Positions 1,433-16,151 of a stretch of 64,000 nt of DNA are shown here, piece by piece. Source of the stretch: Bacteroidia bacterium (GTDB lineage: Bacteria; Bacteroidota; Bacteroidia; Flavobacteriales; Flavobacteriaceae). Within the stretch, counting starts at the first letter, position 1; the number at the start of each line of letters is the position of its first letter. The stretch is from NCBI GenBank assembly GCA_030432635.1, contig JAUIMB010000005.1, positions 1 through 64,000 on the forward strand, written 5' to 3'. The translations under genes were made by a program, and so were the position numbers. The notes under the pieces are model-generated. The model had not been told where the DNA came from. It did no database searches and saw only the letters and a list, made by a program, of their open reading frames with translations.

Positions 1433-3373
1433 TTATGCAAGACAATAGTGCTGTTTTATTAATGTAACCATTTCATTTTTGTGCACTTCTATTTCAGTTT
1501 CAGTCCATGATTCACCATATTCATTAAAAATGTAATATGATTTTAAAGAATCATATGTGTTTTTTCCCTTAAACCTACTTCTTTTTTCATCAACGGATTT
1601 ATTACTATACTCTGAATTTTGAGCAACACTTAATAGAACCAAATTACCAAATGAATGCAAGTATTCATGTTCTATTACCGGGTTCTTTATAATATTTTCA
1701 GGGTTTTGAGGATAAATATGTTCTATTGAATTTCTTGAGGTAATTCTGTAACTTTTAAACTCATCGGTCTCATCAAATTTCCAATTTTTCCACAAAATAT
1801 ATTCCAATTTTTGAAACCAGTAATGCTTATATTTTGTACCATTTGGCTTGTTTAAATAGGTAAAAATGTCGAAATCAACATTCAAATCATTGGATAATAA
1901 TTCTAACGAAGCCTCCTTATCAGTTATTTTTGTGCACAACGATAGTTGATTATCATAGTTCTCTAATACTTCAAGACAATGTTTGGAATTTCCATCGAAG
2001 TCGTGCTCGCTATCTATTAAGTACCCTAGATAAGGTGTTAACCAAAATTGCCTCAAATAATCTCCTGTAAAATATAATACAGATTGCAGCATAAGCATTT
2101 CAGAACTTTCATACTTAGTTCTAGTATAATAATTATCAGAATTTTTATTGATATTCATTAATTCTAAATGCTCTATTTTAGTATCAACGTCAGTAATCCA
2201 TTTAATAATGTGTTTATCAAAAGTTAATCTCACTTCCCATAGCAATAAAAAGAATCGTTCAATCTCTTTTGTGTCTTCGACATTTTCTAGAGTTTCAAAC
2301 ACCTCAATTAAACGATTAACATGAAAAGTACCTTCAAAATCAGTTTTACCTTCATACCTCAAATGCAGCCTATAAGTATGTAATAATAATTGCCCAAAGT
2401 TTATAATAGATCGACAATATACTTCTTCTGAAACTCTATCCTCTTTAAAGGTATCCTTTTTACTCTCTTGATATTCCCCATCACAAATCTTATCAATATC
2501 ATCAATACTAAATATGATTTCTTCACCATCCGTGGTATGGCTTAAATCTTCGTATAAAAACACATCTTCATCGAATTCTGTGTAATTTTTCAGATTAACC
2601 GACTTCCAATCAGTATTAGGAAATGAGCTTCGAACATTTCGTTCAAAAAAATTATTCATATTCTCACAAGCCTCCCATATCTTACCGTACATTACCTTTT
2701 TATCTATTCTCTTCAGTAAGTTTGCTTTTATAATATCGGTTTGTTCCAATTGAATACCAGCACTGTTTATAGTTGAAAACAACTTATTAAGATCAATCTT
2801 TGATGGGGTTGCATTTTTTATAAACTGAACCTTTCGGTAGATATAATCGCCAAAGCCCAATAGATCTTGCTCATCTATAGATTCAATGATACCATTAATT
2901 GTAACTAATGCATTTGCAATATTTTTTAAATAAGGGAATTTTACGATAATGTCACTTTCAATTACGTTTCTCTTACTCCCTTCATCTTCCTTCAATAAAC
3001 TATCAAAATAATCATGAACTTCTGTTCTTATTTCAAAATCTAATTTTAAAAACCCTTTTTCATTAGTCAAAAAATTTTCAATAACCGAATTGCTCTTTTT
3101 TATCGAAAATACGAAAGCTGTCAACCATAAAGTCGTAAATCGTTGCTGACCGTCAATCAATTCAGCTACCGATCCGTTTTCTTTAGTTAATATAGTTCCT
3201 ACAAAATAATTACTTTCTCTATCATGTAAAAACGACTTATAAAAATCCCAAAGTAGCTTGTTTAATTGTTCATCTCCCCAAACATAAGGTCTCTGATATG
3301 TTGGAACAACAAACTGATATGACTGAAGCTTTTCTAGATTAACAACAGAAGTATGAAACCTTTTATTATTCAT
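1433..3373 (-). CDS. DUF262-DUF1524 protein, GmrSD-type restriction nuclease-like
   Basis: 646 residues. The N-terminus has the DUF262 (ParB/Srx-like NTPase) signature: VPTYQRPYVW around residues 23-32 and D74-G-Q-Q-R78. The C-terminus carries a DUF1524 HNH-like nuclease: IEHIYPQNP with H552, then N577 in the SFGNLVLLS segment and N586. This is the full GmrS-GmrD arrangement in one chain. Members of this family include type IV restriction enzymes against glucosylated phage DNA, SspE and BrxU. It overlaps the start of the upstream DUF262 gene by 8 bases, so the two are translated together. Neighbouring type I restriction genes support an anti-phage role; the modification it senses cannot be read from the sequence. 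Confidence 0.85.
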   Translation of the reverse strand: MNNKRFHTSVVNLEKLQSYQFVVPTYQRPYVWGDEQLNKLLWDFYKSFLHDRESNYFVGTILTKENGSVAELIDGQQRFTTLWLTAFVFSIKKSNSVIENFLTNEKGFLKLDFEIRTEVHDYFDSLLKEDEGSKRNVIESDIIVKFPYLKNIANALVTINGIIESIDEQDLLGFGDYIYRKVQFIKNATPSKIDLNKLFSTINSAGIQLEQTDIIKANLLKRIDKKVMYGKIWEACENMNNFFERNVRSSFPNTDWKSVNLKNYTEFDEDVFLYEDLSHTTDGEEIIFSIDDIDKICDGEYQESKKDTFKEDRVSEEVYCRSIINFGQLLLHTYRLHLRYEGKTDFEGTFHVNRLIEVFETLENVEDTKEIERFFLLLWEVRLTFDKHIIKWITDVDTKIEHLELMNINKNSDNYYTRTKYESSEMLMLQSVLYFTGDYLRQFWLTPYLGYLIDSEHDFDGNSKHCLEVLENYDNQLSLCTKITDKEASLELLSNDLNVDFDIFTYLNKPNGTKYKHYWFQKLEYILWKNWKFDETDEFKSYRITSRNSIEHIYPQNPENIIKNPVIEHEYLHSFGNLVLLSVAQNSEYSNKSVDEKRSRFKGKNTYDSLKSYYIFNEYGESWTETEIEVHKNEMVTLIKQHYCLA

Positions 3374-4805
3374 AATAATGTCCTTCTTTTAGTTTTAGTA
3401 CTATAGCACTTATCAATGTTTTATCGAAATCTTTGGGATTCTCTTCATAATAACCTATACCTTCAAAAGTATTAAAGTACTGTTTTAGGGTACAAAGATG
3501 TTTATCCTTAGATTGGCCAATTCCTGTATTTTCAGTATTAAATTGGTATTTAAATTTCTTTAAAAAGAATAACAATTCGTCAACCGTATATACCTCTAAG
3601 ATATTATCAATTAACTGATTCTCATAAACAAACTTAAATATACTGTCTTCCCTAACATTGCGACCAAAAGAGACTCTTAATGAGTAAATGAACCTATACA
3701 TCCAAAGGCTGGATTCATAAAGTCTAAAAAATCCAAATCTGCTGACATAGGCAACTATACAAATCTCTAGTAATTCCTTTAAGAACAAAGTTCCATTTTG
3801 ACCATGCATAAGCTCATCATTAAACTTATAAAATGCATCACTCACCCTGTGATCTTTTTCTGTTTTACTAAACAATACTTGGTGCAGATTTACATAATCA
3901 CTGATGTAATCTAAGGTATTATTACCGTCAGACAAAGGTTGTTTTAATTGTTTTATATGGCTTTCATGCATTTGCATCAACCTATCACCCTTATTAATTA
4001 CTGCGCTATAGTAAAATGAAATATCATCACCATGGGATTTAGTCCTCTCAGTAAATTCCTCTATTAAAACCTCTTTTATGCCTTTTGAATCACGATAAAA
4101 TGGAAATAGCCTCCAATTTCTATTGTCCCAAAAGCGGATTTTTGTTAAATTTTGAACTATTTCTTCAATAATCTTATTCTCTATACCTTCCCATTTCCTT
4201 GCCTGGTAATCAATAATTTTTTTTGAACTAATAGCCCTTAAATGATGAGCCTTTATAATATCCGATCCACTCAGTCTAACTCCTCCTGTGTTTTGAGTTT
4301 CAAAAAAAGTATATGCGAGATCTTCTGTGCTGGTAACCACCAATGTAATATTAACAGAATTTAAATCAATTTCATTAAGAATGTTAGAGTCAGCATACTT
4401 AAAGATGTCCTTTGATTTAACACTCTTTAAATAGCTGTAGTTTCTTTTTATATTTTTAATACTAACGGGGGAAGTATATTTTACTCCTGTGTTTAACTCT
4501 TCATTAATTAAGGCCTGAATTAACAACATGGTAGTAATTCGTTGTTGCCCATCAATTATATTTAACTTATCTTTTTTTTGATGTATAATAATACTACCTA
4601 AGTAGAATAGCGCCTTATCAATGTCTTTTGATTCATTATACTCGATAAAATCATCCAGAAGCCTATCTATTTGTTTTTCTGACCAAACATAAGGTCTCTG
4701 GTATTCTGGAATACATAATTGTCCGCAAATATCTGAACTTGGAATATTATCGTGACAAGTATTTAATAATTCTTGAAACGTACAACTTATAACTTTTACA
4801 TTCAT
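3366..4805 (-). CDS. DUF262 protein without nuclease domain, partner of the downstream DUF262-DUF1524 protein
   Basis: 479 residues. It has the DUF262 motifs CIPEYQRPYVW (about 31-41) and D85-G-Q-Q-R89, but I see no HIYPQ-type DUF1524 HNH motif in its C-terminal half, so it is probably a sensing or NTPase subunit with no nuclease of its own. Its stop codon overlaps the start of the larger DUF262-DUF1524 gene. The two proteins share motif layout but are clearly diverged, so this looks like an old paralogous pair rather than a recent duplication. It is separated from the hsdR-proximal small ORF by about 125 bases and may have its own promoter. Confidence 0.8.
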   Translation of the reverse strand: MNVKVISCTFQELLNTCHDNIPSSDICGQLCIPEYQRPYVWSEKQIDRLLDDFIEYNESKDIDKALFYLGSIIIHQKKDKLNIIDGQQRITTMLLIQALINEELNTGVKYTSPVSIKNIKRNYSYLKSVKSKDIFKYADSNILNEIDLNSVNITLVVTSTEDLAYTFFETQNTGGVRLSGSDIIKAHHLRAISSKKIIDYQARKWEGIENKIIEEIVQNLTKIRFWDNRNWRLFPFYRDSKGIKEVLIEEFTERTKSHGDDISFYYSAVINKGDRLMQMHESHIKQLKQPLSDGNNTLDYISDYVNLHQVLFSKTEKDHRVSDAFYKFNDELMHGQNGTLFLKELLEICIVAYVSRFGFFRLYESSLWMYRFIYSLRVSFGRNVREDSIFKFVYENQLIDNILEVYTVDELLFFLKKFKYQFNTENTGIGQSKDKHLCTLKQYFNTFEGIGYYEENPKDFDKTLISAIVLKLKEGHYYE

Positions 4806-4930
4806 TTTTTATATATCGTCTTTGCCACAAACAACTTCAACATTTGTTTAGTATTATAAGAAGGCTCTATTCCGAAGCTATAAAGTTGGCAGTTCTTTTA
4901 ATAATTAAGCTCAACGAATTAAAGAACCTA

Positions 4931-5110
4931 TCATAATGAAATATTAAAGACATGTTTTAAGAGATAACTGTCAATTTCATTTTCAGAAATTGGCTTTTTT
5001 TTCTTTACCTCCTCATTTGTTTCAATATGTTTTTTAAGCATTTTTAATAATAGAAATTGTTCGTTTTTACCCAAGGCCATTACAATTTCAAAAACATTCT
5101 TTGCATTCAT
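4931..5110 (-). CDS. Small uncharacterised protein downstream of hsdR
   Basis: 59 residues from the ATG at 5110 (an in-frame ATG at 5131 would overlap hsdR; 5110 starts 10 bases after the hsdR stop and is preferred). The sequence begins MNAKNVFEIVMALGKNEQ, is rich in Lys, Glu and Leu, and is probably all helical. I do not recognise it. Its size, charge and amphipathic N-terminus are like antitoxins or small subunits that end an operon, but no toxin gene lies next to it. It is co-directional with the hsd genes and probably co-transcribed. Confidence 0.5.
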   Translation of the reverse strand: MNAKNVFEIVMALGKNEQFLLLKMLKKHIETNEEVKKKKPISENEIDSYLLKHVFNISL

Positions 5111-5120
5111 AATTATTATT

Positions 5121-8102
5121 CTACTTACCAATACCCCTTACTTCCCGATCATAAAACTCTTTAAACATCATCGATTTAAAAAGCGTATTTGCCTTTTCAT
5201 CAGTCATTTTGTTATAAAAATCTAGCTTCGTATTTATAAAGTTTAAAAATTCACTATCAACAACTTCATCAAACTTATCTCTAATGTTATTTTTAGAGTT
5301 TTGCTTATTAAAATAAGCCATCAATTCCTCGTTATCATAAAGATTCTTCTTTACTCTATTAAAATCAACTTTATCTTCATCTGTAAGCTCCAACCCAAAT
5401 GTATCATTAAGAACTTTGATAATTTTTGTTAAGAAATCCAATTCATCTTCCTTTAGTTGACCTGATCCTCCTGGCTTCATTCCTTCGACTTCGCTATCAC
5501 CAGATTCTAACTCCAAATCGGCAGTAAATTTATGTTGTATTTTATAACTGTCTAACTCAATATCATTAACAACATCTAGTGGCAAATTACTTTGCACGTA
5601 AGGTAGTTTCTTCAACAAGGCTGTTAGAAAAACATACTTTTTCTCTAGTTCAACATCTGTAAATGTTATGATTTGACTTAAAAATCGATATATTTTGGTG
5701 AATGATTTCACAGCATTTTTAAAGACTAACTTATCTTCCTCTTCAAGCTCTTCATCAAATCTGGTTGATATAGTATTTAAAATCGGTTGTAGTTTTTCAA
5801 AGTCATCCTTCTTTGAGAAAAATATTTTCGCAAAATCTTCTACTTCACTATCATAATACATATTTTGCCCTTCTATTATGTTCAGGACGTCATATAAACT
5901 ATTTGGATCTGTTTCATTCTCTTCATCCATAAAGTTCTTACCATAGAAATGCTGAAAATCTGCTCGCACTTTATCTGGATCATTCACAAAATCTAAAACC
6001 ATAGTAGAATCCTTACCTCTACGATTTCTATTTAATCGCGATAAGGTTTGTACCGTATTTGCTCCACCTAAACTTTTGTCAACAAACATGGTGTGCAATA
6101 GAGGCTCATCAAAACCTGTCTGATATTTGTTAGCCACAATTAATATTCGATTTTCAGGTAATTTAAGAGCTTCTGGAATACTTACTCTACCTCCAAGCTC
6201 ATTCATACTGGATTCTGTATAATCCTGACCAGTTTCTTCATCGTGAACTGTACCTGAGAATGCGACTAATGCTTTATAAGGCAATTTCATTTCACTCATT
6301 ATTTCATCAAACTTACGTTTAAAACGTACTGCATGCAATCGCGATTTAGTCACTAGCATTGCCCTTGCCTGACCCTGAATTTCGTTTTGTGTTTGACTTG
6401 CAAAATGTTCTATCATTATGCGTGCTTTCTTTTCAATAGCATGGTCCTGTAGATCCACATAATTCCCTAAAACACGGACTGTTTTTTTCTTTTCGTACTC
6501 TTTATCTTCTATTTCTGTGCGTTTTACCAGTTTGTAGTAACGTTTAAAAGACATATAGTTTTTAAGAACATCCTTGATGAAGCCTTCTTTAATAGCCTCC
6601 TCCATGGTGTACTCGTCAAAAGGCTCAATATTACCATTAATTTTAGTACCGAATAGCTCTAAGGTCTTAGGTTTTGGTGTTGCCGTAAACGCAAACTGTG
6701 AAATATTGGGTTGCTGACCTTTTTTTGAAATCTCATCTGCAATAATTTCATCAACTGTTTTAACATCTTCTTCTTCCTCTGCTGCCTTTTCTAAACTTAG
6801 TGCTTTTCTCATATGCCTTGATGATTCACCAGATTGAGAACTGTGCGCCTCATCTATTAAAACCGCATAATTCCTGTCTGCATAATGACCTACAACGTCT
6901 GATATTATTGGAAATTTCTGTATAGTCGTTATTATAATTCGCTTTTTAGCTTCAATGGCATCTTTTAAATCTTGGGACGTAGTTTTCTCATCTAAATAAG
7001 CTACTACACCTGGTGTATTATCTAATTGACGAATATTGTTTTGTATTTGTTTATTTAATACGCGTCTATCCGTAACTACGATTATAGAGTCATATAACGC
7101 TTTAGAATCTGTATAATTCTGATAAAAATTTGCCAATCGATAGGCTAACCAAGTTATGGTATTTGATTTACCAGATCCAGCAGAATGTTGTATCAAATAG
7201 TTCTTACCTGTTCCGTCAGTTTTTAAGGCATTTAAAATACGATGTACGGCTCTTCTTTGATGAAAACGAGGAAACAATAACTTAGTAGACTTTTTCTCTT
7301 CTAATTTTCTGGTTTTTGGATTATATACTTTCTCTTTATCCGTTTGAACACTTATAAAGTTTTGAACCAAATCCATCAAGGAATTCTTTCTCCAGACATC
7401 TTCCCAAAGATATGCCACTGCAAATCCGTTTGGGTTTTCATTTATTAAACCTTTATTAAAAGGCAAGAAGTATGTCGATTTACCTTTTAGTTCAGTGGTC
7501 ATAAATACTTTCTCTGTGCCAACAGCAAAATGAACTAAGCATCGCTTAAACTCCAAGAACGGTTCTCCCTTAGGATTTCGATCTTGCATATATTGCTTTA
7601 TAGCATTATGATGCCTTTGATTTGTTAATGTGTTTTTTAATTCTGCTGTAACTACAGGAATACCATTAATGAATAGTACAATATCAATCTCATTGTTATT
7701 TCTATTAGAATATTTTAATTGACGTACAATGGTTAAACGGTTTTTAGCATATGCTTCTTCGTGCTCTGGTGTTTTATTGTTCGCAGGCTTAAAATAAACT
7801 AAACCTAGTTTTTGACCTCTATCCTTTATACCATTACGAAGTACGTCGAGTGTTTTATTCTTAGTAATATTTTTAGAAACATTTTCAACTATTTTAGTAT
7901 CTAATGCCTCTCCATATTGCTTTTTTAAGGCCTCATATTTCTTAGGTTGAGTTGCCTTTATAAAAGCAATAACATCGGTTGGTATAACGCATAAATCTTT
8001 GTTATACAAATCTGGTGATACTACATGATATTCATTAACCTTATTAACTAGGTAATTCTCTATATGTTCTTCGAAATGTAATTCTTTAGTGCCTGATGCC
8101 AT
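5121..8102 (-). CDS. hsdR: Type I restriction endonuclease, R subunit
   Basis: 993 residues, normal length. The N-terminal nuclease has the PD-(D/E)xK pattern with D140 and E154-L-K156 (VTAELKN). The translocase follows: Walker A HSAGSGKS (306-313), motif II DEAH (417-420), a TATPK motif III, and a motif VI-like segment with QTLSRLNRNRRGK. The protein pumps DNA towards the bound MS complex and cuts when translocation stalls. It starts just after the HExxH peptidase gene (2-base gap), so the hsdM-hsdS-peptidase-hsdR unit looks like one operon. All motifs appear intact. Confidence 0.95.
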   Translation of the reverse strand: MASGTKELHFEEHIENYLVNKVNEYHVVSPDLYNKDLCVIPTDVIAFIKATQPKKYEALKKQYGEALDTKIVENVSKNITKNKTLDVLRNGIKDRGQKLGLVYFKPANNKTPEHEEAYAKNRLTIVRQLKYSNRNNNEIDIVLFINGIPVVTAELKNTLTNQRHHNAIKQYMQDRNPKGEPFLEFKRCLVHFAVGTEKVFMTTELKGKSTYFLPFNKGLINENPNGFAVAYLWEDVWRKNSLMDLVQNFISVQTDKEKVYNPKTRKLEEKKSTKLLFPRFHQRRAVHRILNALKTDGTGKNYLIQHSAGSGKSNTITWLAYRLANFYQNYTDSKALYDSIIVVTDRRVLNKQIQNNIRQLDNTPGVVAYLDEKTTSQDLKDAIEAKKRIIITTIQKFPIISDVVGHYADRNYAVLIDEAHSSQSGESSRHMRKALSLEKAAEEEEDVKTVDEIIADEISKKGQQPNISQFAFTATPKPKTLELFGTKINGNIEPFDEYTMEEAIKEGFIKDVLKNYMSFKRYYKLVKRTEIEDKEYEKKKTVRVLGNYVDLQDHAIEKKARIMIEHFASQTQNEIQGQARAMLVTKSRLHAVRFKRKFDEIMSEMKLPYKALVAFSGTVHDEETGQDYTESSMNELGGRVSIPEALKLPENRILIVANKYQTGFDEPLLHTMFVDKSLGGANTVQTLSRLNRNRRGKDSTMVLDFVNDPDKVRADFQHFYGKNFMDEENETDPNSLYDVLNIIEGQNMYYDSEVEDFAKIFFSKKDDFEKLQPILNTISTRFDEELEEEDKLVFKNAVKSFTKIYRFLSQIITFTDVELEKKYVFLTALLKKLPYVQSNLPLDVVNDIELDSYKIQHKFTADLELESGDSEVEGMKPGGSGQLKEDELDFLTKIIKVLNDTFGLELTDEDKVDFNRVKKNLYDNEELMAYFNKQNSKNNIRDKFDEVVDSEFLNFINTKLDFYNKMTDEKANTLFKSMMFKEFYDREVRGIGK

Positions 8103-8104
8103 AA

Positions 8105-8953
8105 CTAATTCTTTGTTATTGAAGATTCTAAAATTTCCTTATACCCTATTATACATTCATAAAAATTCTCGAACTTTTTTGTTGGTTGCTTAATTCCTCT
8201 TTCAGTTAAATGAAGTGCAAATAGTGCAACAACAAATCCCCATATTTTATCATTTTCTGGTCCAAAAATCAATGATAAATTATCAATGATTCTATTATAA
8301 GTAAAAGGGTGTTTATAACCATCAAAATCATCACTATGAATACCATATACATTTAACAACATTAAACCTAACGCAACACCTTTTGCTTTTAGTAAATAAT
8401 CATTATCACTAAATGAGTTCATTAAGAACAACGTTGCATCAAAATCACATTGTCTTTCCTCTTCAATTGGTTGTTCGAACTTCCCATTATTTACAGAATG
8501 AAAGAGTTCATGTGAAACAAAAAACAACAGAGAATATTTAAAAGCATCAACAAACTCAGAAGTTTCAATTTCTCTTTTGCAAATCGGTAACTCTGTAAAA
8601 GTACTTTGTTTAAGATTGTCAGTGGCCCAAGTCAACATTGTTTTTGAATCATCCCATTTTGAATCCTTTAATTCAATGTTCTGTCCTTCAGGATTAACGC
8701 CTTTGCAATAAATATCATAAAAGGATAAATGAGCAATACTTAAAGCCCTTATAATATCAATTGTTTTTTGACTAATTCGTATAAGCTGATTAAAAATAAT
8801 TTCACACAAAAAATCATCATCGGAAGTAATACAAATAGTTATATCATCAAATCTATTTGAGCCTTGCACTTTTATATCATCTAACAAACTAATCGCAGAA
8901 TTAACTGATTTCTTGATATCTTCTCTAACATTTTCTTTAAACTCAATTTTCAT
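8105..8953 (-). CDS. HExxH zinc peptidase-like protein (Lit/peptidase U49-like) inside the hsd operon
   Basis: 282 residues. A clear zincin motif H148-E-L-F-H152 lies in a hydrophobic helix (FFVSHELFHSV), followed about 14 residues later by E166-R-Q-C-D170-F-D-A, which matches the ExxxD third-ligand helix of gluzincins. The rest is helical with no signal peptide, so it should be cytoplasmic. The pattern resembles the phage-exclusion protease Lit (peptidase U49), which cleaves EF-Tu on phage infection; I infer this from motif layout only. It sits between hsdS and hsdR with 0- and 2-base gaps, an unusual place for a protease, and suggests a back-up abortive response linked to restriction. A non-defence zincin is possible. 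Confidence 0.6.
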   Translation of the reverse strand: MKIEFKENVREDIKKSVNSAISLLDDIKVQGSNRFDDITICITSDDDFLCEIIFNQLIRISQKTIDIIRALSIAHLSFYDIYCKGVNPEGQNIELKDSKWDDSKTMLTWATDNLKQSTFTELPICKREIETSEFVDAFKYSLLFFVSHELFHSVNNGKFEQPIEEERQCDFDATLFLMNSFSDNDYLLKAKGVALGLMLLNVYGIHSDDFDGYKHPFTYNRIIDNLSLIFGPENDKIWGFVVALFALHLTERGIKQPTKKFENFYECIIGYKEILESSITKN

Positions 8954-10270
8954 TTAATTAGTTTTAGGTTCCCAATCCCTAACATCTATTTTACCGGTCA
9001 CTGCTTCACTAATTAAAGACTGACGATACGCTTTGAGTTTTTGGATAGAAGTTTGAATTTTTTCTATGCTAATTTCAATTTTTAAAGCAGAATTTTTAAT
9101 AAATGAAATAGTGTTTTGTTGCTCTGCAACTGATGGATAAGAAATTTTTAAATTAGATAAAACGCCCATACCAATATTCTGTTGCGTTCCGAAACTCCAA
9201 TTTAACTCCACTTGATATTTGAATAAACTTGATTGTAAGTAATAAAATAAATACTCATAAAAAACTTTTTCACCCTTTGCCCTAAAAACAGCTAAAGGTG
9301 ACCATATAGTAAACTTTTCTTCTGTTTTAACAATACCAATATTTCCTGTTGTCGCTCCAGATTTAACCATATAAATGTCATTAATTTTTGGAGTATATTT
9401 TTTGGAAAACAATTCATAATCTTCTTCAGAAATATAACCCCTCTTTCTATTAAAATCAATTTCATTATTTCTTATAGATTCAGCTGAAATAAAAGGAATA
9501 CCTTCGTCATATAACTTTGGTGTCGTATGAGGTCCATCTGTAATAGGAATATCTAAAATATTTTTTATTGAAGTAACCTCCCAATGCTCTGGAATGTTAC
9601 CCAACCACTCAATACCACTGTCTTTTAAGGCTACATTTTTGTTTAATCCTTTGGTTACCGCTTCATTAATAATGGCTTGTCGTTGCTCTTGTAGTTTTTG
9701 TATAAGGCTTTCTTTTTTGCTAATTAAGGTGTCTATTAACTGGGTATGGTAATCGAGATAAGCGGCTATTTGGGTTTGTTCTTGTTTTGGTGGCAATAAC
9801 ATTTTTAAGCCTTTTAAAACATCACCACTAACGTGAGGAATACCCATACCAATTGTATTCTCTTGAATATGTTTTTCACCTAGTTGTAATAAATAATTAA
9901 GATAAGTTGACTCAAAATCAGAATCTGTTAAGTCAATTTTTGCCATAGTTGATGAAAGTGCACCTTTTTTAGCTTTCACAATTTCACCTGCTTTAGAACC
10001 ATCCCATAATATGAGAATATCCCCATCATCTACAAACACTAATCCTTTTTCATCTATTGATGCATAAGTAGGGTTTGAAGTTTTATTTCTTAAAAATTCC
10101 ATTGACAAATATGGCAATAGATTTTCACAACTTTCATCATAATCAACTTTAGGTTTTCTTCCTTTAGTAATATTGCTAATCCACTTTAAACTGACGCTCT
10201 TCCAACTCTCAGGAATTTTACCAATCCATTCTACTCCACTATCCTTATATGTCTCGTATGCTTTTTCCAT
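8954..10270 (-). CDS. hsdS: Type I restriction-modification specificity subunit
   Basis: 438 residues with the two-fold pattern of HsdS. Each half begins with a DSGxEWxGxIPExW segment (residues about 10-23 and 218-231), followed by a variable target-recognition domain and a coiled-coil conserved region (QAAYLDYHTQLIDTLI-like in the first half; a helical SFIKNSALKIEISIEKIQ region in the second). It sets the bipartite DNA target of both methylation and cleavage. The start ATG overlaps the hsdM stop by one base (TAATG), so translation is coupled. I see no inverted repeats around it that would indicate phase-variable hsdS shuffling. Confidence 0.93.
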   Translation of the reverse strand: MEKAYETYKDSGVEWIGKIPESWKSVSLKWISNITKGRKPKVDYDESCENLLPYLSMEFLRNKTSNPTYASIDEKGLVFVDDGDILILWDGSKAGEIVKAKKGALSSTMAKIDLTDSDFESTYLNYLLQLGEKHIQENTIGMGIPHVSGDVLKGLKMLLPPKQEQTQIAAYLDYHTQLIDTLISKKESLIQKLQEQRQAIINEAVTKGLNKNVALKDSGIEWLGNIPEHWEVTSIKNILDIPITDGPHTTPKLYDEGIPFISAESIRNNEIDFNRKRGYISEEDYELFSKKYTPKINDIYMVKSGATTGNIGIVKTEEKFTIWSPLAVFRAKGEKVFYEYLFYYLQSSLFKYQVELNWSFGTQQNIGMGVLSNLKISYPSVAEQQNTISFIKNSALKIEISIEKIQTSIQKLKAYRQSLISEAVTGKIDVRDWEPKTN

Positions 10271-12054
10271 TAGCTAATCAATTTTTTTAATAGGTTAGCA
10301 ATGTCATTCTCTAAGGTTATAATCTCGGTTTTAATTTCGCTTGCAGGTCGTAAAGGTGTATAGTTGTAGAAATACTTGGTAAAGTTAATTTCGTAGCCAA
10401 TACGCGTTTTATCGTAATTAATCCAGGCATCTGGTACGTGTGGCAAGACTTCGTTATCAAAATAGGTTTCTATATCCTGGCTTAAAGGTATATTTTCTTT
10501 ATCACGTTTCTTTGTGTCTGGCTTGGGATTGCCCTTGCTCATTACCATTTTACCATCCTTATACAATGGTTGCTCTACCGTAATTTGGAAGTAGCCAAAA
10601 TCGTCGTTATCAAAGATTTTGCAATGCTCGTTTTCTTCAAAATTGGTGTACAATTCTAATAAGGCCTCAATATGAGCTTCGGTAAGTTCGTTACGTTTGT
10701 TCCCTAGACTTTTTTTATTAGAGCGAGCAAAAATATGCTCGGTTTCTTCCTTGCCTTTGGCATTGGTGCCAACAACTTCAGTGGCATTTCCATTAATTAG
10801 TTGTACTTTCCCTTTGCGGTTTTCGGCCTTTTTATTAGTTAAAAACCAGATGTAGGTATTAATACCTGTGTTGTAAAACAAATCTTTTGGTAAAGCGATG
10901 ATGCATTCTAGCCAATCGTTTTCTATAATCCATTTGCGTATGTCGCTTTCACCACTACCTGCATCTCCCGTAAATAGTGGTGAACCATTGGTAACAACAC
11001 CTATACGAGAACCATTAGTTTTATCCATTTTAGAAATCATATGTTGTAAGAACAACAATTGCCCATCACTTGTCCGTGGTGTACCTGCGTAAAAACGACC
11101 TGCTGGATTTAAAGCTTCATTTTCTATAAAGTTTTTGTCTTTTTTCCAGGTAACTCCATATGGTGGATTGGCCATCATATAGTGAAAATGACTGCCTTGA
11201 AATTGGTCATCCGTAAACGAGTTACCGTGTTTTACATCGCGTGGGTTTTCACCTGAAATCAGTGCCTCTGATTTTGCAATGGCACAAGATTGCTCGTTTA
11301 ACTCTTGGCCATAGGTTAGTATGGTTGGTTTGTGATTACTGTCTCTACAGAGCTCATCTAAAATATAGTTTTTTCCAAGATTTACCATGCCACCTGTACC
11401 ACAAGCAGGATCGAAAATTGTACGGATAATACCTGGTTTACATAGCTCATCCTTTTCTGGTGTAAAGATGATGGTATTCATTAATGCAATCACATCTCGA
11501 GGTGTAAAGTGCTCTCCTGCTGTTTCGTTAGATTGCTCGTTAGAGATACGGATTAACTCTTCAAAGACATAACCCATAGAGTGATTATCTATCTTATCTT
11601 GATGCAAGTCTATTTTGCATATGGCATCAATCATTTCGTAAAGCAAACGGTTTTTAACGAGTCTAGCTATAATCTTATCAAACTGAAAGCTCTCTAAAAT
11701 ATCACGCACTTCTGGGTTAAACCCATTGAGGTAATTATTAAAGTTAATCTCAATGTATTGCGGTTCGTCTTTAAGTGAATTTAGCGTGTGCTTTGAGGTG
11801 TTGTAGTAGGTTAAACCACCAGAGGCTTTTTTTAAGATAGGATCTAGCTTGTCTTCGCTTACTTTGACTTTAAAATCGTTGTAGCTTTTCCTTACTTTAT
11901 CGTTGACGTCTTCTAGCATACAATCTAGCCTGCGGATGACCACAAAAGGTAATAGTACGTCGCCTATTTCATTTTTCTTAAAGGCATCTCGCAAGACATC
12001 ATCTGTGATACGCCATATAAAACCTACGTCTACTTTGTTAATAATGTTGCTCAT
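10270..12054 (-). CDS. hsdM: Type I restriction-modification DNA N6-adenine methyltransferase subunit
   Basis: 594 residues. The N-terminal HsdM helical domain is followed by the methylase core: GEHFTPRDVIALM, the SAM-binding motif FDPACGTGGM, and the catalytic NPPYG of the N6-adenine (NPPY) class. It methylates the HsdS target and protects the host. It is the first gene of the hsd operon; a TAnnTTTG-type -7 box and a palindrome lie directly upstream. The C-terminus is somewhat longer than minimal HsdM. All key motifs are present. Confidence 0.95.
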   Translation of the reverse strand: MSNIINKVDVGFIWRITDDVLRDAFKKNEIGDVLLPFVVIRRLDCMLEDVNDKVRKSYNDFKVKVSEDKLDPILKKASGGLTYYNTSKHTLNSLKDEPQYIEINFNNYLNGFNPEVRDILESFQFDKIIARLVKNRLLYEMIDAICKIDLHQDKIDNHSMGYVFEELIRISNEQSNETAGEHFTPRDVIALMNTIIFTPEKDELCKPGIIRTIFDPACGTGGMVNLGKNYILDELCRDSNHKPTILTYGQELNEQSCAIAKSEALISGENPRDVKHGNSFTDDQFQGSHFHYMMANPPYGVTWKKDKNFIENEALNPAGRFYAGTPRTSDGQLLFLQHMISKMDKTNGSRIGVVTNGSPLFTGDAGSGESDIRKWIIENDWLECIIALPKDLFYNTGINTYIWFLTNKKAENRKGKVQLINGNATEVVGTNAKGKEETEHIFARSNKKSLGNKRNELTEAHIEALLELYTNFEENEHCKIFDNDDFGYFQITVEQPLYKDGKMVMSKGNPKPDTKKRDKENIPLSQDIETYFDNEVLPHVPDAWINYDKTRIGYEINFTKYFYNYTPLRPASEIKTEIITLENDIANLLKKLIS

Positions 12055-12115: not shown

Positions 12116-13099
12116 TTAATTAAAGTTTAAAAAATTAGACACTTTATCTCCTTCTATACCGTTATCATTCACCTTAAAAAAGTCTATATGCTTTTGTAAA
12201 TCTCGAATTAACTCTCTAGACAAATTAAAATTGTCATAGCTAGCTAAACTTGAAAAACTCAATTCTCTTCCTTTAGTAATCATATTTCCTGTACTATCAT
12301 AATAATTTAATGTATCACCAGAGTAAATTCTGTAATAATTCATTAATACTGTACGATCATGCTCTGCTTTACTATCCTGACCGCGTTGATCTCTGTAAGT
12401 AACCAAAGTGAATTTAGGTTTTACTCCTGTTACTTCCTTTATTGCCTTCCTCACCACCGGACTAATCTGATCGTAAGAAACGCATTGAGCTCTATTTGTG
12501 TAAATAACAACATTAACCTTTGAGTTTGATTTTAAGGCTAAGGTTTTTAAAACCATTACTAAATTACTTGAAAACAAACTCGCGTCTGATGCTATATAAG
12601 GATCTACGATTATTATATCTGTTAGAGGCAAGGCGTAAAGTTCTAAATCTGTCCAATTCTTAAATGCAGGCCCATTGATTCTTAGTTTCTTTTCAAACCC
12701 ATAATCATTTTGCCCAACAAATAACTTATTAAATACCTCGATTTCTTCTCCCACCTCACCAACAATCACACAACCCGAATTTTTAAATTTTGCTGTTTCT
12801 TCATCTTCCAGTAAATACACTGCTGATAATTTTTTTTCGCAAAACCCAATGGAAGAATTTGACTTTAGTGGTCTTTTTGGTTCTTTATAGTCAAATTCAA
12901 TGACTGTATCTGGATTACAGCCCTGACTGAGCGTTGTGACCCACTGCATTAATAATTTACTACTCTTTAATTCTTCCTTAGGAAAATTAAAAAAAACATT
13001 TAGTTGTTTTTTGAGTAATTTATTGCAATCCTCGAAGAGCGGATTGTCCTTGCTTTTAATAAAGGAAAGTAAATTAGCTTTATCAATGTAAATATCCAT
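12116..13099 (-). CDS. Uncharacterised protein, possible degenerate PLD-like fold, partner of the DUF3696 ATPase
   Basis: 327 residues from the ATG at 13099, one base past the ATPase stop; a TTG at 13114 would add five residues and overlap the ATPase. I do not recognise it with certainty. A strand DIIIVDPYI (about 161-169), a following VNVVIYTNR strand and an H247-D-R249 motif with a downstream GD-LNYYDSTG turn resemble the single-HDR pattern of degenerate phospholipase D-like domains (for example the MITD1 C-terminal domain). The DPYI/HDR combination is shared with several defence-associated proteins of unknown action. Gene order WYL-ATPase-this gene suggests it is the effector or target-binding partner of the ATPase. 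Confidence 0.5.
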   Translation of the reverse strand: MDIYIDKANLLSFIKSKDNPLFEDCNKLLKKQLNVFFNFPKEELKSSKLLMQWVTTLSQGCNPDTVIEFDYKEPKRPLKSNSSIGFCEKKLSAVYLLEDEETAKFKNSGCVIVGEVGEEIEVFNKLFVGQNDYGFEKKLRINGPAFKNWTDLELYALPLTDIIIVDPYIASDASLFSSNLVMVLKTLALKSNSKVNVVIYTNRAQCVSYDQISPVVRKAIKEVTGVKPKFTLVTYRDQRGQDSKAEHDRTVLMNYYRIYSGDTLNYYDSTGNMITKGRELSFSSLASYDNFNLSRELIRDLQKHIDFFKVNDNGIEGDKVSNFLNFN

Positions 13100-13100
13100 A

Positions 13101-14963
13101 CTATAAAATATCAAAAGCTAGATTAGCACTTACATCAAAAAAACCTGGACCAAACTCATTTGAAAACTTGCCATCTTGATTATACTCCATAGAATAAGGC
13201 AAATCATCTTTTTCAAAATAGTAAGCTATGAAAGGTATGTCCGATGAATCCAATGCTTTTTCATTATGCTCTTTCACAAGAACTTGAGATTGTCTCAACA
13301 AATATTCTGAATGTGTTTCTACAATAAATTTTATACCAAATTCTTTGAAGGTGTAAAGAAATAAATTTGCCAATCTAACCTGTAATGCTGGATGCAGATT
13401 TGCCTCAGGCTCTTCAATTAGAATTGTATGCATAAATTCTTCAAAACCCACATGTCTCAAACCTTTTTTTTCTTTCCTAACATCATCCACTTTTAGGTCA
13501 ATAATTAGAGCAATTTTAAAAAGAATCGTAAATATTTGCCCTGCACCAAATCCCTTATCTGCAAGGTTAACTTTGAGTCCATTATCTGTTAACTCTATTT
13601 GAGTTGCAACGCCTTCAATTTGTTTGATCTTAAAATCTTGACCAATATCAAATTCTCTCATCCATTTCTTTAAAAACTTACCAGCCTTAGAAGTTTTAGA
13701 AAACGGGTTTATTGAATGATCTCTTATGACTTCATTGATATCTGAAGACATATTGTTATTGATATATAAGCGCGTTTGTGTATTACGATGCGGACTTAAA
13801 TGATCGACCGAAAAACGCATGATATTTCTAATTTTCTCACCAAATTTATATGCCTTCTCAATCTCAATTGATTCATCTGTTTTCCCGAACAAAGATTGCT
13901 CCTCCACAAGGTACTTAGGTAATATGTTTCTAATTACAGATTCTATAGTTAAATAATCATTATGAAAGTCAGTAAGCGAGAATTCTGGCATTAAAACAAC
14001 TTTGTCTTTCTTTAGAGTTTGATCTAGTTTAAGTTTTTTGTTTAATTCAGAAATTCTCTTTTTAGCATCATTGATGCTTTTAGTTAAATCAATAATATTT
14101 TTATTAAGATTTTTTAAGCGATCTATCAGATTATCTTCGTTCAATTCATGAGAAGTATTTTTTCTCTTCGAATCTAACATGAACTCTTTCCTAAGTAATT
14201 CGTAGATATCATTTCCTATTTTAGCCGATATTTTTTTTTCAATCACCACTCCCTTAGAATCAAGAAAATCTATGGCTCTATCAAAAGATATGTTTAACTC
14301 CCTGAGGACTTTATTTAACCTAATACCTGACTCATCCTTCCCATTATCTTTTGCTTTTTTTGAATTAATCTCTCTAAGATGTCCTTTAATCCTGTCACTC
14401 TCCTTCTTAACTTTATCTAATTCAAGAATGTCTAATTCGAGCAGATTTTTCTGCGTTTGAATCAATACCAGCTCTTCCAATTCCATTTTCTCAGAGTCCT
14501 TAATAGGTTCTGACAAAAAATCTAAATCTAATTTTAACACATAATCATCGGCTGCAGTATTCTCAATAATTAGTTTATTCTTCTTATCAATCTCTGAAAT
14601 TTCAATAAGTTTTAATTTCCCTTTAGATATAATACCTTCATCAATATCTTTTGGCTTAAATATTAGGCAAATATTATGACCATTATTATAATATTCTAGC
14701 TTAATATCTAAATCTAGATTATTTCTATTATTTCGATTTACTGCATTTGAATACGAATCAATTTTATATTTTCTTTGATTACCTCCATTAAAATCTAATT
14801 GAAAATGATTATTAGACTTTATAAAATCTTCTAGAAGTAACATGGATTTAAATATTGTAGATTTCCCTGAATTGTTAGTTCCAGTAAAAAACGTAATGGG
14901 TGCTAGAGCTAATTGCCATGAATTTTTTATTTTCCTAAAATTTGAAACTTTAATATTCTCCAT
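13101..14963 (-). CDS. AAA/ABC-type ATPase with DUF3696 C-terminus (OLD/SMC-like)
   Basis: 620 residues. Walker A is G28-TNNSGKST36; Walker B is the ILIEEPEANLHP segment (about 514-525), followed by an ETHSEY switch His near 551. Residues about 150-330 are rich in Lys, Glu and Leu and look like an SMC-type coiled coil. The C-terminus GPGFFD is typical of DUF3696. Such ATPases act as sensors or motors in several anti-phage systems (Septu, PARIS, retron Eco8-like, Gabija relatives). No TOPRIM domain is visible, so the nuclease, if any, must be the downstream partner. Its start directly follows the WYL stop (no gap), so the trio is one operon. Confidence 0.8.
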   Translation of the reverse strand: MENIKVSNFRKIKNSWQLALAPITFFTGTNNSGKSTIFKSMLLLEDFIKSNNHFQLDFNGGNQRKYKIDSYSNAVNRNNRNNLDLDIKLEYYNNGHNICLIFKPKDIDEGIISKGKLKLIEISEIDKKNKLIIENTAADDYVLKLDLDFLSEPIKDSEKMELEELVLIQTQKNLLELDILELDKVKKESDRIKGHLREINSKKAKDNGKDESGIRLNKVLRELNISFDRAIDFLDSKGVVIEKKISAKIGNDIYELLRKEFMLDSKRKNTSHELNEDNLIDRLKNLNKNIIDLTKSINDAKKRISELNKKLKLDQTLKKDKVVLMPEFSLTDFHNDYLTIESVIRNILPKYLVEEQSLFGKTDESIEIEKAYKFGEKIRNIMRFSVDHLSPHRNTQTRLYINNNMSSDINEVIRDHSINPFSKTSKAGKFLKKWMREFDIGQDFKIKQIEGVATQIELTDNGLKVNLADKGFGAGQIFTILFKIALIIDLKVDDVRKEKKGLRHVGFEEFMHTILIEEPEANLHPALQVRLANLFLYTFKEFGIKFIVETHSEYLLRQSQVLVKEHNEKALDSSDIPFIAYYFEKDDLPYSMEYNQDGKFSNEFGPGFFDVSANLAFDIL

Positions 14964-15989
14964 TTATTTCTGATACTTTTTTGATGCCTTTAATAATCTA
15001 GATGCAATTTTACCACTTAAATCTTTAGGTTCTAGGACCTCAATTTTATCACCGTGTTCTAAAATTTTTGTCTCTAATTCATAATTAGGAATTACTAAAA
15101 TAGAAATATCAATGCAACCTGCTTTAAGGGATTCCGTATTTTTTATATCACCACTTGACTGTGTTGGGTGAAATGGTTTTGTTTTAATGTAAGGCCATAA
15201 ATCTTTGTCTATTCTTAATACAACTTTAACTGGATCTTGATTGTTTACGGTTACACCAATAACGTCATCAAAGTATTCGTCAAAATTAATTTTAGCCTCT
15301 AAAAATTCAGTACCAGAATATTCAATACTCTCAATACGATCTATTGCTTTTTTATATAGCTTCTTTGACTCTAAATTAAGCCCAAAAAGAAACCATCGAT
15401 TATTGTATTGTTTTAGATAATATGGACATACTTCAAAAGTTTCAGATGTTTTTTTACTGAAACTTTTACTTTTTATGTTAAGTGTCTTTTTATAGACAAT
15501 GGCCTTGTATAGCTCCGACAAAAAATCTAATCCTTCCAAATAAGGGTTATTTTCAAAATCAATAACACTTTCTGATTCTGACAACAAACCAAAACTAAAC
15601 TCTAAACGTGTGGTAATATCATTAACCCACTCAAATTGAGGCATGCCCTTAAATCGATTTAATGTCAAGAGTGTTTCTCTCAGCTGGTTGGCTTCAAACT
15701 CGTTGATTGGTTGTTTGTTAATGGTGAAATTTAGATCGGAATATCGTCGATATACTCTTTTACCATCTTTAAATTCTTCGATTGGAGCTTCATATCCTTT
15801 CGAATCTTTCATAAAGAGTATATCATCATAAACTTGACGTTTCCGTATTCCAGAATTATCTCCATCATAGTCCATCAAGGCTTCATTACAGGCTTCAACT
15901 AAGTCATCAATATAATATTTTCTACCAGGGTTTCTAAAACATTTATCTAATGCCTGATACCTAATAATTGCATTTTTATTTGTCGCCAT
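14964..15989 (-). CDS. WYL-domain transcriptional regulator (BrxR/CapW-like)
   Basis: 341 residues. An N-terminal winged helix (RYQALDKCFRNPGRKYYIDDLVEAC; RKRQVYDDILFM) is followed by a WYL domain with YLKQYNNRWFLFGL and YKKAIDRIESI segments, and a C-terminal WCX-like region. WYL proteins of this shape (BrxR, CapW) repress defence operons and are thought to respond to nucleic-acid ligands during infection. It is the first gene of the WYL-ATPase-PLD-like operon. Its promoter carries the same operator-like 11-mer as the hsdM promoter, so I infer that it represses both its own operon and the restriction operon. Confidence 0.8.
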   Translation of the reverse strand: MATNKNAIIRYQALDKCFRNPGRKYYIDDLVEACNEALMDYDGDNSGIRKRQVYDDILFMKDSKGYEAPIEEFKDGKRVYRRYSDLNFTINKQPINEFEANQLRETLLTLNRFKGMPQFEWVNDITTRLEFSFGLLSESESVIDFENNPYLEGLDFLSELYKAIVYKKTLNIKSKSFSKKTSETFEVCPYYLKQYNNRWFLFGLNLESKKLYKKAIDRIESIEYSGTEFLEAKINFDEYFDDVIGVTVNNQDPVKVVLRIDKDLWPYIKTKPFHPTQSSGDIKNTESLKAGCIDISILVIPNYELETKILEHGDKIEVLEPKDLSGKIASRLLKASKKYQK

Positions 15990-16011
15990 GGTTATGAATA
16001 ATTTATAGGTG

Positions 16012-16036
16012 CAAACTAAACATATATGTGTGCACT
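16012..16036 (-). promoter_or_regulatory. WYL-operon promoter with the shared putative operator
   Basis: On the minus strand a TTAGTTTG box (16012-16019, one mismatch to TAnnTTTG) is preceded at exactly 6 bases by AGTGCACACAT (16026-16036), identical to the site at hsdM. A related AGTGCACATA lies at 16111-16120 on the plus strand upstream of the divergent 125-residue gene. Confidence 0.6.
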
Positions 16037-16151
16037 ATACCTGCACTAAAGATGACAAAAATAAATCAAGACCGCAAGGTAATTGTAAGAAATTTCTATT
16101 GAGCACAATCAGTGCACATAAGCCTTTTATTCTTACAGGAAACAAAAAGGA

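Follow-up and report, generated by a model that had tools for sequence, protein, structure and literature searches.

What does a peptidase contribute to a type I restriction system when its gene lies between those of the specificity and the restriction subunits? The question is raised by a 64,000-nucleotide stretch of a Flavobacteriaceae genome (assembly GCA_030432635.1, contig JAUIMB010000005.1, positions 1 to 64,000), referred to here as the window, in which a gene for an HExxH protein occupies the junction of hsdS and hsdR. The best-known relative of this protein is Lit of Escherichia coli, which is encoded by prophage e14, is responsible for the Gol–Lit exclusion of T4, and cleaves EF-Tu with a Gol-like peptide bound. 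PrrC and Lit are the two textbook T4 excluders that stop translation; PrrC is known from the position between hsdS and hsdR, and a Lit relative is now found there as well.

The peptidase gene and its product

The operon is part of a run of genes on the minus strand that reads WYL regulator, AAA_15/AriA-like ATPase, X332 (a conserved operon protein), hsdM, hsdS, protease, hsdR, and then two GmrSD-type genes. The product of hsdM (10270–12054, 594 aa) matches N6_Mtase (2.9e-55) and HsdM_N in Pfam, and the assembly contains one further N6_Mtase match, a weak one (2.6e-7). HsdS (8954–10270, 438 aa) is recognized by Methylase_S in Pfam (6.5e-30) and by Specificity_I in PADLOC (7.4e-110). HsdR (5121–8102, 993 aa) harbors the Pfam domains HSDR_N, SWI2_SNF2, and ResIII and matches TIGR00348 at 5.4e-57, below the cut-off of that model. 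The junctions are tight: hsdM and hsdS overlap by one base, the hsdS stop codon abuts the protease start (TAA ATG, 0 bases between), and the protease stop is followed after 2 bases by the hsdR start (TAG TT ATG). The distance from hsdR to the first GmrSD-type gene is 315 bases. The original prediction had placed the protease at 8105–8953 on the minus strand, in the order hsdM–hsdS–protease–hsdR with gaps of 0 and 2 bases, and it is correct in each of these particulars.

The protease gene (8105–8953, minus strand) encodes a predicted Lit-family (U49-like) zinc metallopeptidase of 282 aa, an assignment that draws on PADLOC, NCBIfam, Pfam, BLASTP, and conserved alignment columns. The PADLOC Lit profile, which carries no curated cut-off, matches residues 35–268 of the protein to positions 32–278 of 290 with an E value of 3.3e-20. 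The NCBIfam Lit equivalog is matched at 4.4e-12, with a score of 45.8 bits against a cut-off of 274; because of this gap, the protein is filed only as a diverged relative. The Pfam family U49 (PF10463) is matched at 8.9e-5 with 22.7 bits, 1.2 bits short of the gathering score of 23.9. In a Pfam search at E ≤ 1, a range in which the HMMER filters discard most matches above 0.1, U49 is the only family found, with no M78, helix-turn-helix, NTPase, or anticodon-nuclease domain. Pairwise BLASTP against E. coli K-12 Lit, a single comparison, gives an E value of 2e-8, and the same comparison with the Lit relatives of Gluconobacter and P2-EC46 is not significant (0.96 and 3.7, respectively).

The zinc site HELFH comprises residues 148–152, and E166 and D170 form an ExxxD pair. 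Across 13 aligned Lit-family sequences, H148, E149, H152, E166, D170, P216, and R221 are invariant, and H215, the first residue of the motif H215-P216-x4-R221, is kept in 12 of the 13. Judged by this conservation, the metal site and the catalytic glutamate are intact, and E166 is the putative third zinc ligand by analogy with HExxH…E peptidases in general. Given the Lit profile and BLASTP matches, the HExxH sequence is evidently more than a chance occurrence. The HELFH motif and the ExxxD pair on which the original prediction relied are thus present, in columns that are invariant or nearly so, and its description of the protein as a Lit-like HExxH protease within a type I operon is borne out at the level of sequence for a remote relative that scores below both curated cut-offs. 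By these sequence criteria, the window protein is not Lit itself but a diverged relative whose active site is intact. It resembles E. coli Lit in the profile match, in the arrangement of HExxH, E, D, and HP-x4-R, and in length (282 versus 297 aa), but it is only about 20–23% identical, falls under the curated cut-offs, and resides in a type I operon rather than in a prophage.

The structure predicted from the single sequence has a mean pLDDT of 41.1. Prediction from a four-sequence alignment gives a mean pLDDT of 51.7 and a pTM of 0.55, too weak for a fold claim, with block means of 70–82 over residues 141–200. Foldseek finds no match for this weak model (pLDDT 51.7) among solved and viral structures at E ≤ 0.001. 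VIA-align pairs it with the M48-type BepA (6ait, Z 7.2; 6sar, Z 6.0) and with a putative Zn peptidase (3c37, Z 6.5). Since no row reaches Z 8 and helical proteins of no relation score just as high (up to 7.8), the zinc-peptidase rows are not counted as evidence. Sequence searches of solved structures with the window protein and with the Lit profile likewise return no match.

Relatives of the protein are rare. At E ≤ 0.001, the own genome alone matches among 395 genomes of the order (0 of 394 others), and no match is found in the plasmids, phages, and viral contigs searched with the window protein. In samples of 395 genomes each, the PADLOC Lit profile matches 4 genomes from the phylum and 7 from the class; the own genome is included in both samples, which may overlap. 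Besides the own genome, G599, G1032, G914, and G906 are counted as carrying real Lit relatives. Five further profile matches (G720, G523, G765, G992, and G1044) are weak and were left out of the Lit count; the frames of G720 and G523 were read and rejected as Lit, as they encode different HExxH proteins. A scan of genome contigs with a three-sequence Lit alignment returned 63 stretches, none of them confirmed, and this absence carries little weight because the scan relied on just two short patterns.

The rarity of the protein, which extends to the sibling operons described below, would be consistent with a recently acquired passenger that is decaying or non-functional here. The GC content of the gene (0.284) is also the lowest of the nine genes measured. 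However, the gap to its neighbors is small (0.295–0.373 from hsdR to the WYL gene), the open frame is full length, and all catalytic columns are kept, and a mere passenger is considered very unlikely.

The hsdS–hsdR slot in sibling operons

Sibling operons were chosen through the similarity of their HsdR to that of the window. At E ≤ 1e-80, HsdR relatives are present in 19 of 395 genomes of the order, the own genome included, which provides 19 other stretches from 18 genomes. With 80 loci from named genomes, the best 80 of at least 588 HsdR relatives, the total is 99 sibling loci, of which 80 are readable; the remaining 19 were dropped because hsdR is not preceded by a same-strand hsdS that could be identified. 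Slot contents were counted automatically from same-strand ORFs, with opposite-strand ORFs left out, and a slot is termed empty if it is under 200 bases and contains no ORF of 60 aa.

Among the 80 readable slots of these 99 loci, which include the best 80 of at least 588 named-genome relatives, 26 are empty, at least 46 carry a same-strand ORF of 100 aa or more, 8 are intermediate (not empty, yet without a counted ORF of that size), and none holds a Lit-like protein. The figure of 46 is a lower bound because two of the intermediate loci (L122 and L126) have ORFs of 322 and 375 aa that start inside hsdS and are missed by the count. Five pairs of loci have HsdR proteins that are 94–98% identical, and removal of one member of each leaves 77 readable slots, with 25 empty and 44 filled.

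The original prediction also suggested that the protease could trim HsdR to limit self-damage, comparable to the relief of restriction by ClpXP. The place of the gene just before hsdR is the one feature that speaks for such a role. The sibling slots lend it no support, with 26 of 80 empty and 46 of 80 occupied by other ORFs, none of them Lit-like; for this reason, HsdR of the sibling family needs no protease from the slot. One of the empty-slot operons (L074, from an uncultured Cellulophaga) encodes an HsdR that matches residues 1–993 of the window HsdR and is 72% identical to it in the best segment. Trimming or degradation of HsdR is therefore regarded as highly improbable.

The cargo of the filled slots is diverse, and the 81 slot ORFs fall into 51 similarity clusters. 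The slot ORFs match 65 Pfam families and 273 PADLOC families, of which the 25 most frequent in each case are listed; the Pfam matches among them are GmrSD_N (7), AAA_15/AAA_21 (6), the Schlafen domain AlbA_2 (4), M78 peptidase (4), DUF4411 (3), RmuC (3), and NOV_C (3), together with single DarT, Abi_2, ApeA, and other matches; Fic is also found in slots. Among the PADLOC matches listed, six slot ORFs are assigned to the Septu PtuA, HEC-01A, and AriA models, which overlap. The window protein matches the slot ORFs at best with an E value of 0.15, and the three best matches of the Lit profile to them are all weak and all M78 proteins.

The M78 (ImmA-like) peptidases lie in the slots of L048 (7915–9634), L092 (8359–10004), L103 (8302–9456), and L117 (7853–9555). 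Of the three DUF4411 proteins among the 81 slot ORFs, the only one individually located is beside the M78 peptidase of L048. A slot that accepts other protease logics, and a sequence distance from Lit that leaves room for a new substrate, are compatible with a protease whose substrate is not a host translation factor but, for example, a phage protein or a repressor, as in an ImmA-like switch. The window protein nevertheless has no M78 or helix-turn-helix match in Pfam at E ≤ 1, and the profile that it does match is that of Lit. Such a substrate is thus viewed as quite unlikely.

Three pairs of loci with near-identical HsdR proteins (94–98%) have both slots readable (L053/L054, L057/L074, and L108/L114), and the slot content differs in all three. 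These pairs constitute good material for dating cargo exchange. The two siblings nearest to the window, L074 and L057, make the exchange visible at the resolution of single bases. In L074, the slot is empty and hsdS and hsdR are six bases apart, whereas L057 (Ichthyenterobacterium magnum) carries a 489-aa RmuC-family gene with two bases on either side, at exactly the junction that the Lit-like gene occupies in the window. The two HsdR proteins are each 72% identical to that of the window in the best segment and 98.4% identical to each other, and the gain or loss in this slot is therefore recent. The WYL and AAA genes upstream are kept in both operons. RmuC-family genes occur in the slots of three close siblings (L057, 8529–9998; L059, 7294–8700; and L061, 3664–5295, the last assigned by cluster); RmuC is usually regarded as recombination-limiting.

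The hsdS–hsdR slot is exchangeable and rich in defence families, and the placement of the Lit-like gene reads as cargo. The original prediction had named an insertion unique to this genome as an outcome that would speak against it. Within this survey, uniqueness holds for Lit in the slot, as none of the 80 slots contains it and none of the 394 other genomes of the order matches the protein; it fails for the use of the slot, which is filled in at least 46 of the 80.

Comparison with PrrC and the settings of other Lit relatives

The logic of the slot is already known, and a Lit relative exactly where PrrC sits is a single occurrence. PrrC is encoded in the order hsdM–hsdS–prrC–hsdR, is silenced by the Hsd complex, and is freed by the T4 protein Stp (PMC3014915, PMC3874165). 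As a latent translation stopper paired with a type I enzyme, PrrC (EcoprrI) shares its exact gene position with the window protein (PMC3014915). The two differ in that PrrC combines anticodon nuclease activity with an ABC-type NTPase domain, whereas the window protein is a predicted metallopeptidase with no such Pfam match. PrrC and PARIS are referred to as guardian systems in a further paper (PMC12707154).

Other defence genes have been described in this slot. According to one report, DarTG2 lies between hsdS and hsdR in EPEC, at a site termed a potential recombination hotspot (PMC12255303). This RRDM island resembles the window in having foreign defence genes in the slot and a zinc peptidase in the same island; in contrast to the window, the EPEC peptidase is M48-like and follows the operon, and it is DarTG2 that fills the slot. 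TgvAB in VPI-2 of Vibrio cholerae and RloF of Campylobacter jejuni are likewise embedded in type I operons (PMC11411939). They are GmrSD-type nucleases, whereas in the window the GmrSD pair sits after hsdR. Among the papers listed in searches of the open literature, which does not extend to subscription papers and preprints, none describes a type I operon that carries a Lit relative.

The gene order shared with prrC suggests a guard, in which the Hsd complex would keep the protease silent and an anti-restriction protein would free it, such that loss of restriction triggers translation arrest. The idea of the original prediction that the protease could act when restriction fails fits this published precedent (PMC3014915). 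The junctions of 0 and 2 bases favor matched synthesis, and since the flush neighbors are hsdS and hsdR, no antitoxin-like gene lies directly beside the protease. Makarova et al. (2012) treat PrrC and Lit as two parallel routes to translation arrest and propose that toxins of this sort are kept in check by immune complexes, which would act as antitoxins (PMC3506569). On the other hand, no lasting association of Lit with the Hsd family of the window is seen among the 80 readable sibling slots, and DarTG2 and TgvAB, which occupy the slot in other bacteria, are systems in their own right (PMC12255303, PMC11411939).

The settings of Lit relatives elsewhere bear on the same point. Fourteen other Lit loci were read, comprising e14, P2-EC46, eight plasmids, and four genomes; hsd genes are nearby in one of them (G599), and the other 13 have no hsd gene in the stretch read. 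The latter figure applies to stretches that are in part short (6.0 and 3.2 kb for e14 and P2-EC46, respectively), to plasmid gene tables that are incomplete, and to loci (L144–L146 and L147) in which hsd genes were sought only with the Hsd proteins of the window. The plasmids are 8 of 13 records (H4, H5, H11, H15, and H16 were left out, and H10 is the same record as H1), and the viral contigs L137, L155, and L156 were left out of the count. The settings of Lit relatives are varied, and in most of the stretches read no hsd gene is seen. These loci weigh against a guard, which is considered rather unlikely.

The G599 locus (L056, 9827–16948) reads hsdS (cut by the contig end), SIR2, HerA, hsdM, a 280-aa protein, Lit, and Fic. 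Lit thus occurs near a type I system for a second time, although the genes are arranged differently and no hsdR was found on the contig.

The idea that Lit loci share a partner or antitoxin gene was rejected. Twelve neighbor genes, from 12 of the 14 loci (e14 and Gluconobacter were left out, and the L016 gene is downstream and convergent), are unrelated except for one pair from two Agrobacterium plasmids. The members of this pair are predicted pPIWI-associating nucleases, whose genes overlap either the beginning of the Lit frame or the preceding gene (L149, 5105–6828; L150, 5168–6825); the match to Lit in L149 extends over two annotated genes. Hachiman genes also lie near Lit in two Agrobacterium plasmids.

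Because Lit relatives elsewhere are found in many settings without a common partner, the trigger is probably the protease's own and not the restriction complex. The explanation preferred here, with moderate confidence, is that the Lit-like gene is defence cargo encoding a latent, autonomous abortive-infection protease, which would be co-expressed with restriction and triggered on its own. From the flush junctions, cotranscription and translational coupling are inferred, such that the protease and the restriction subunits would be translated from one mRNA. It would stay idle until a phage component meets either the protease or its substrate and would then cut an essential host protein, plausibly one that serves translation, by analogy with the cleavage of EF-Tu by E. 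coli Lit. A phage that escapes restriction would still be aborted.

The EF-Tu of the host genome has the RGITI site, the target of Lit cleavage, in which Gly is residue 60 when the first Met of the frame is counted as 1. To our knowledge, this site is near-universal and found in most bacteria, and its presence here is not discriminating. With about 20% identity and scores under both curated cut-offs, the substrate and trigger of the window protein may differ altogether from those of Lit. As none of the 80 sibling slots holds Lit, there is no recurrent association of Lit with the slot to argue from.

A stricter version of the guard would make the protein the protease counterpart of PrrC, silenced by Hsd, freed when a phage inactivates the type I enzyme, and cutting EF-Tu or another essential protein. 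It is judged unlikely; if it were true, two classic logics of T4 exclusion would be joined in one operon. If the guard in general were true, this would suggest that the slot favors translation stoppers wired to restriction over defence genes at large. Even acting alone, as in the preferred explanation, the protein extends the known cargo of type I operons by a Lit-type peptidase and provides a testable case outside E. coli.

Flanking genes

The run begins with the WYL-domain regulator (14964–15989, minus strand, 341 aa), which matches WYL (1.3e-8) and WCX (5e-6) in Pfam. It is followed by the AAA_15/AriA-like ATPase (13101–14963, minus strand, 620 aa), with matches to AAA_15 in Pfam (8.8e-21) and to NsnB (1.8e-34) and AriA (1.8e-24) in PADLOC. 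All seven near siblings (L057, L059, L063, L065, L066, L067, and L074) have such an ATPase upstream of hsdM, and five of the seven (L057, L059, L065, L067, and L074) have the WYL regulator upstream.

The third gene encodes X332 (12116–13114, minus strand, 332 aa), which has no Pfam family at E 0.1. Clear relatives are detected by phmmer in L063, L066, and L074, and a fragment is present in L058. When eight candidate partner proteins are aligned, four of which are only 16–18% identical, H252, R254, and N259 are invariant and form an H-x-R…N motif. If these genes encode a PARIS-like pair associated with the type I system, that pair would itself be a candidate restriction guard.

The place after hsdR varies as well. 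In the window, it is occupied by two GmrSD-type genes (1433–4805, minus strand), the first encoding a GmrSD_N and DUF7834 protein (3366–4805) and the second a GmrSD_N and GmrSD_C protein typical of type IV restriction (1433–3373), both by Pfam. In L074, the same place holds an AAA_5 and McrBC pair (13002–16071). After hsdR, the window and L074 therefore carry two different kinds of type IV restriction. The interval that separates hsdR from the GmrSD genes (window positions 4806–5120) contains a short frame that begins with ATG and is about 60 codons long, as counted by eye.
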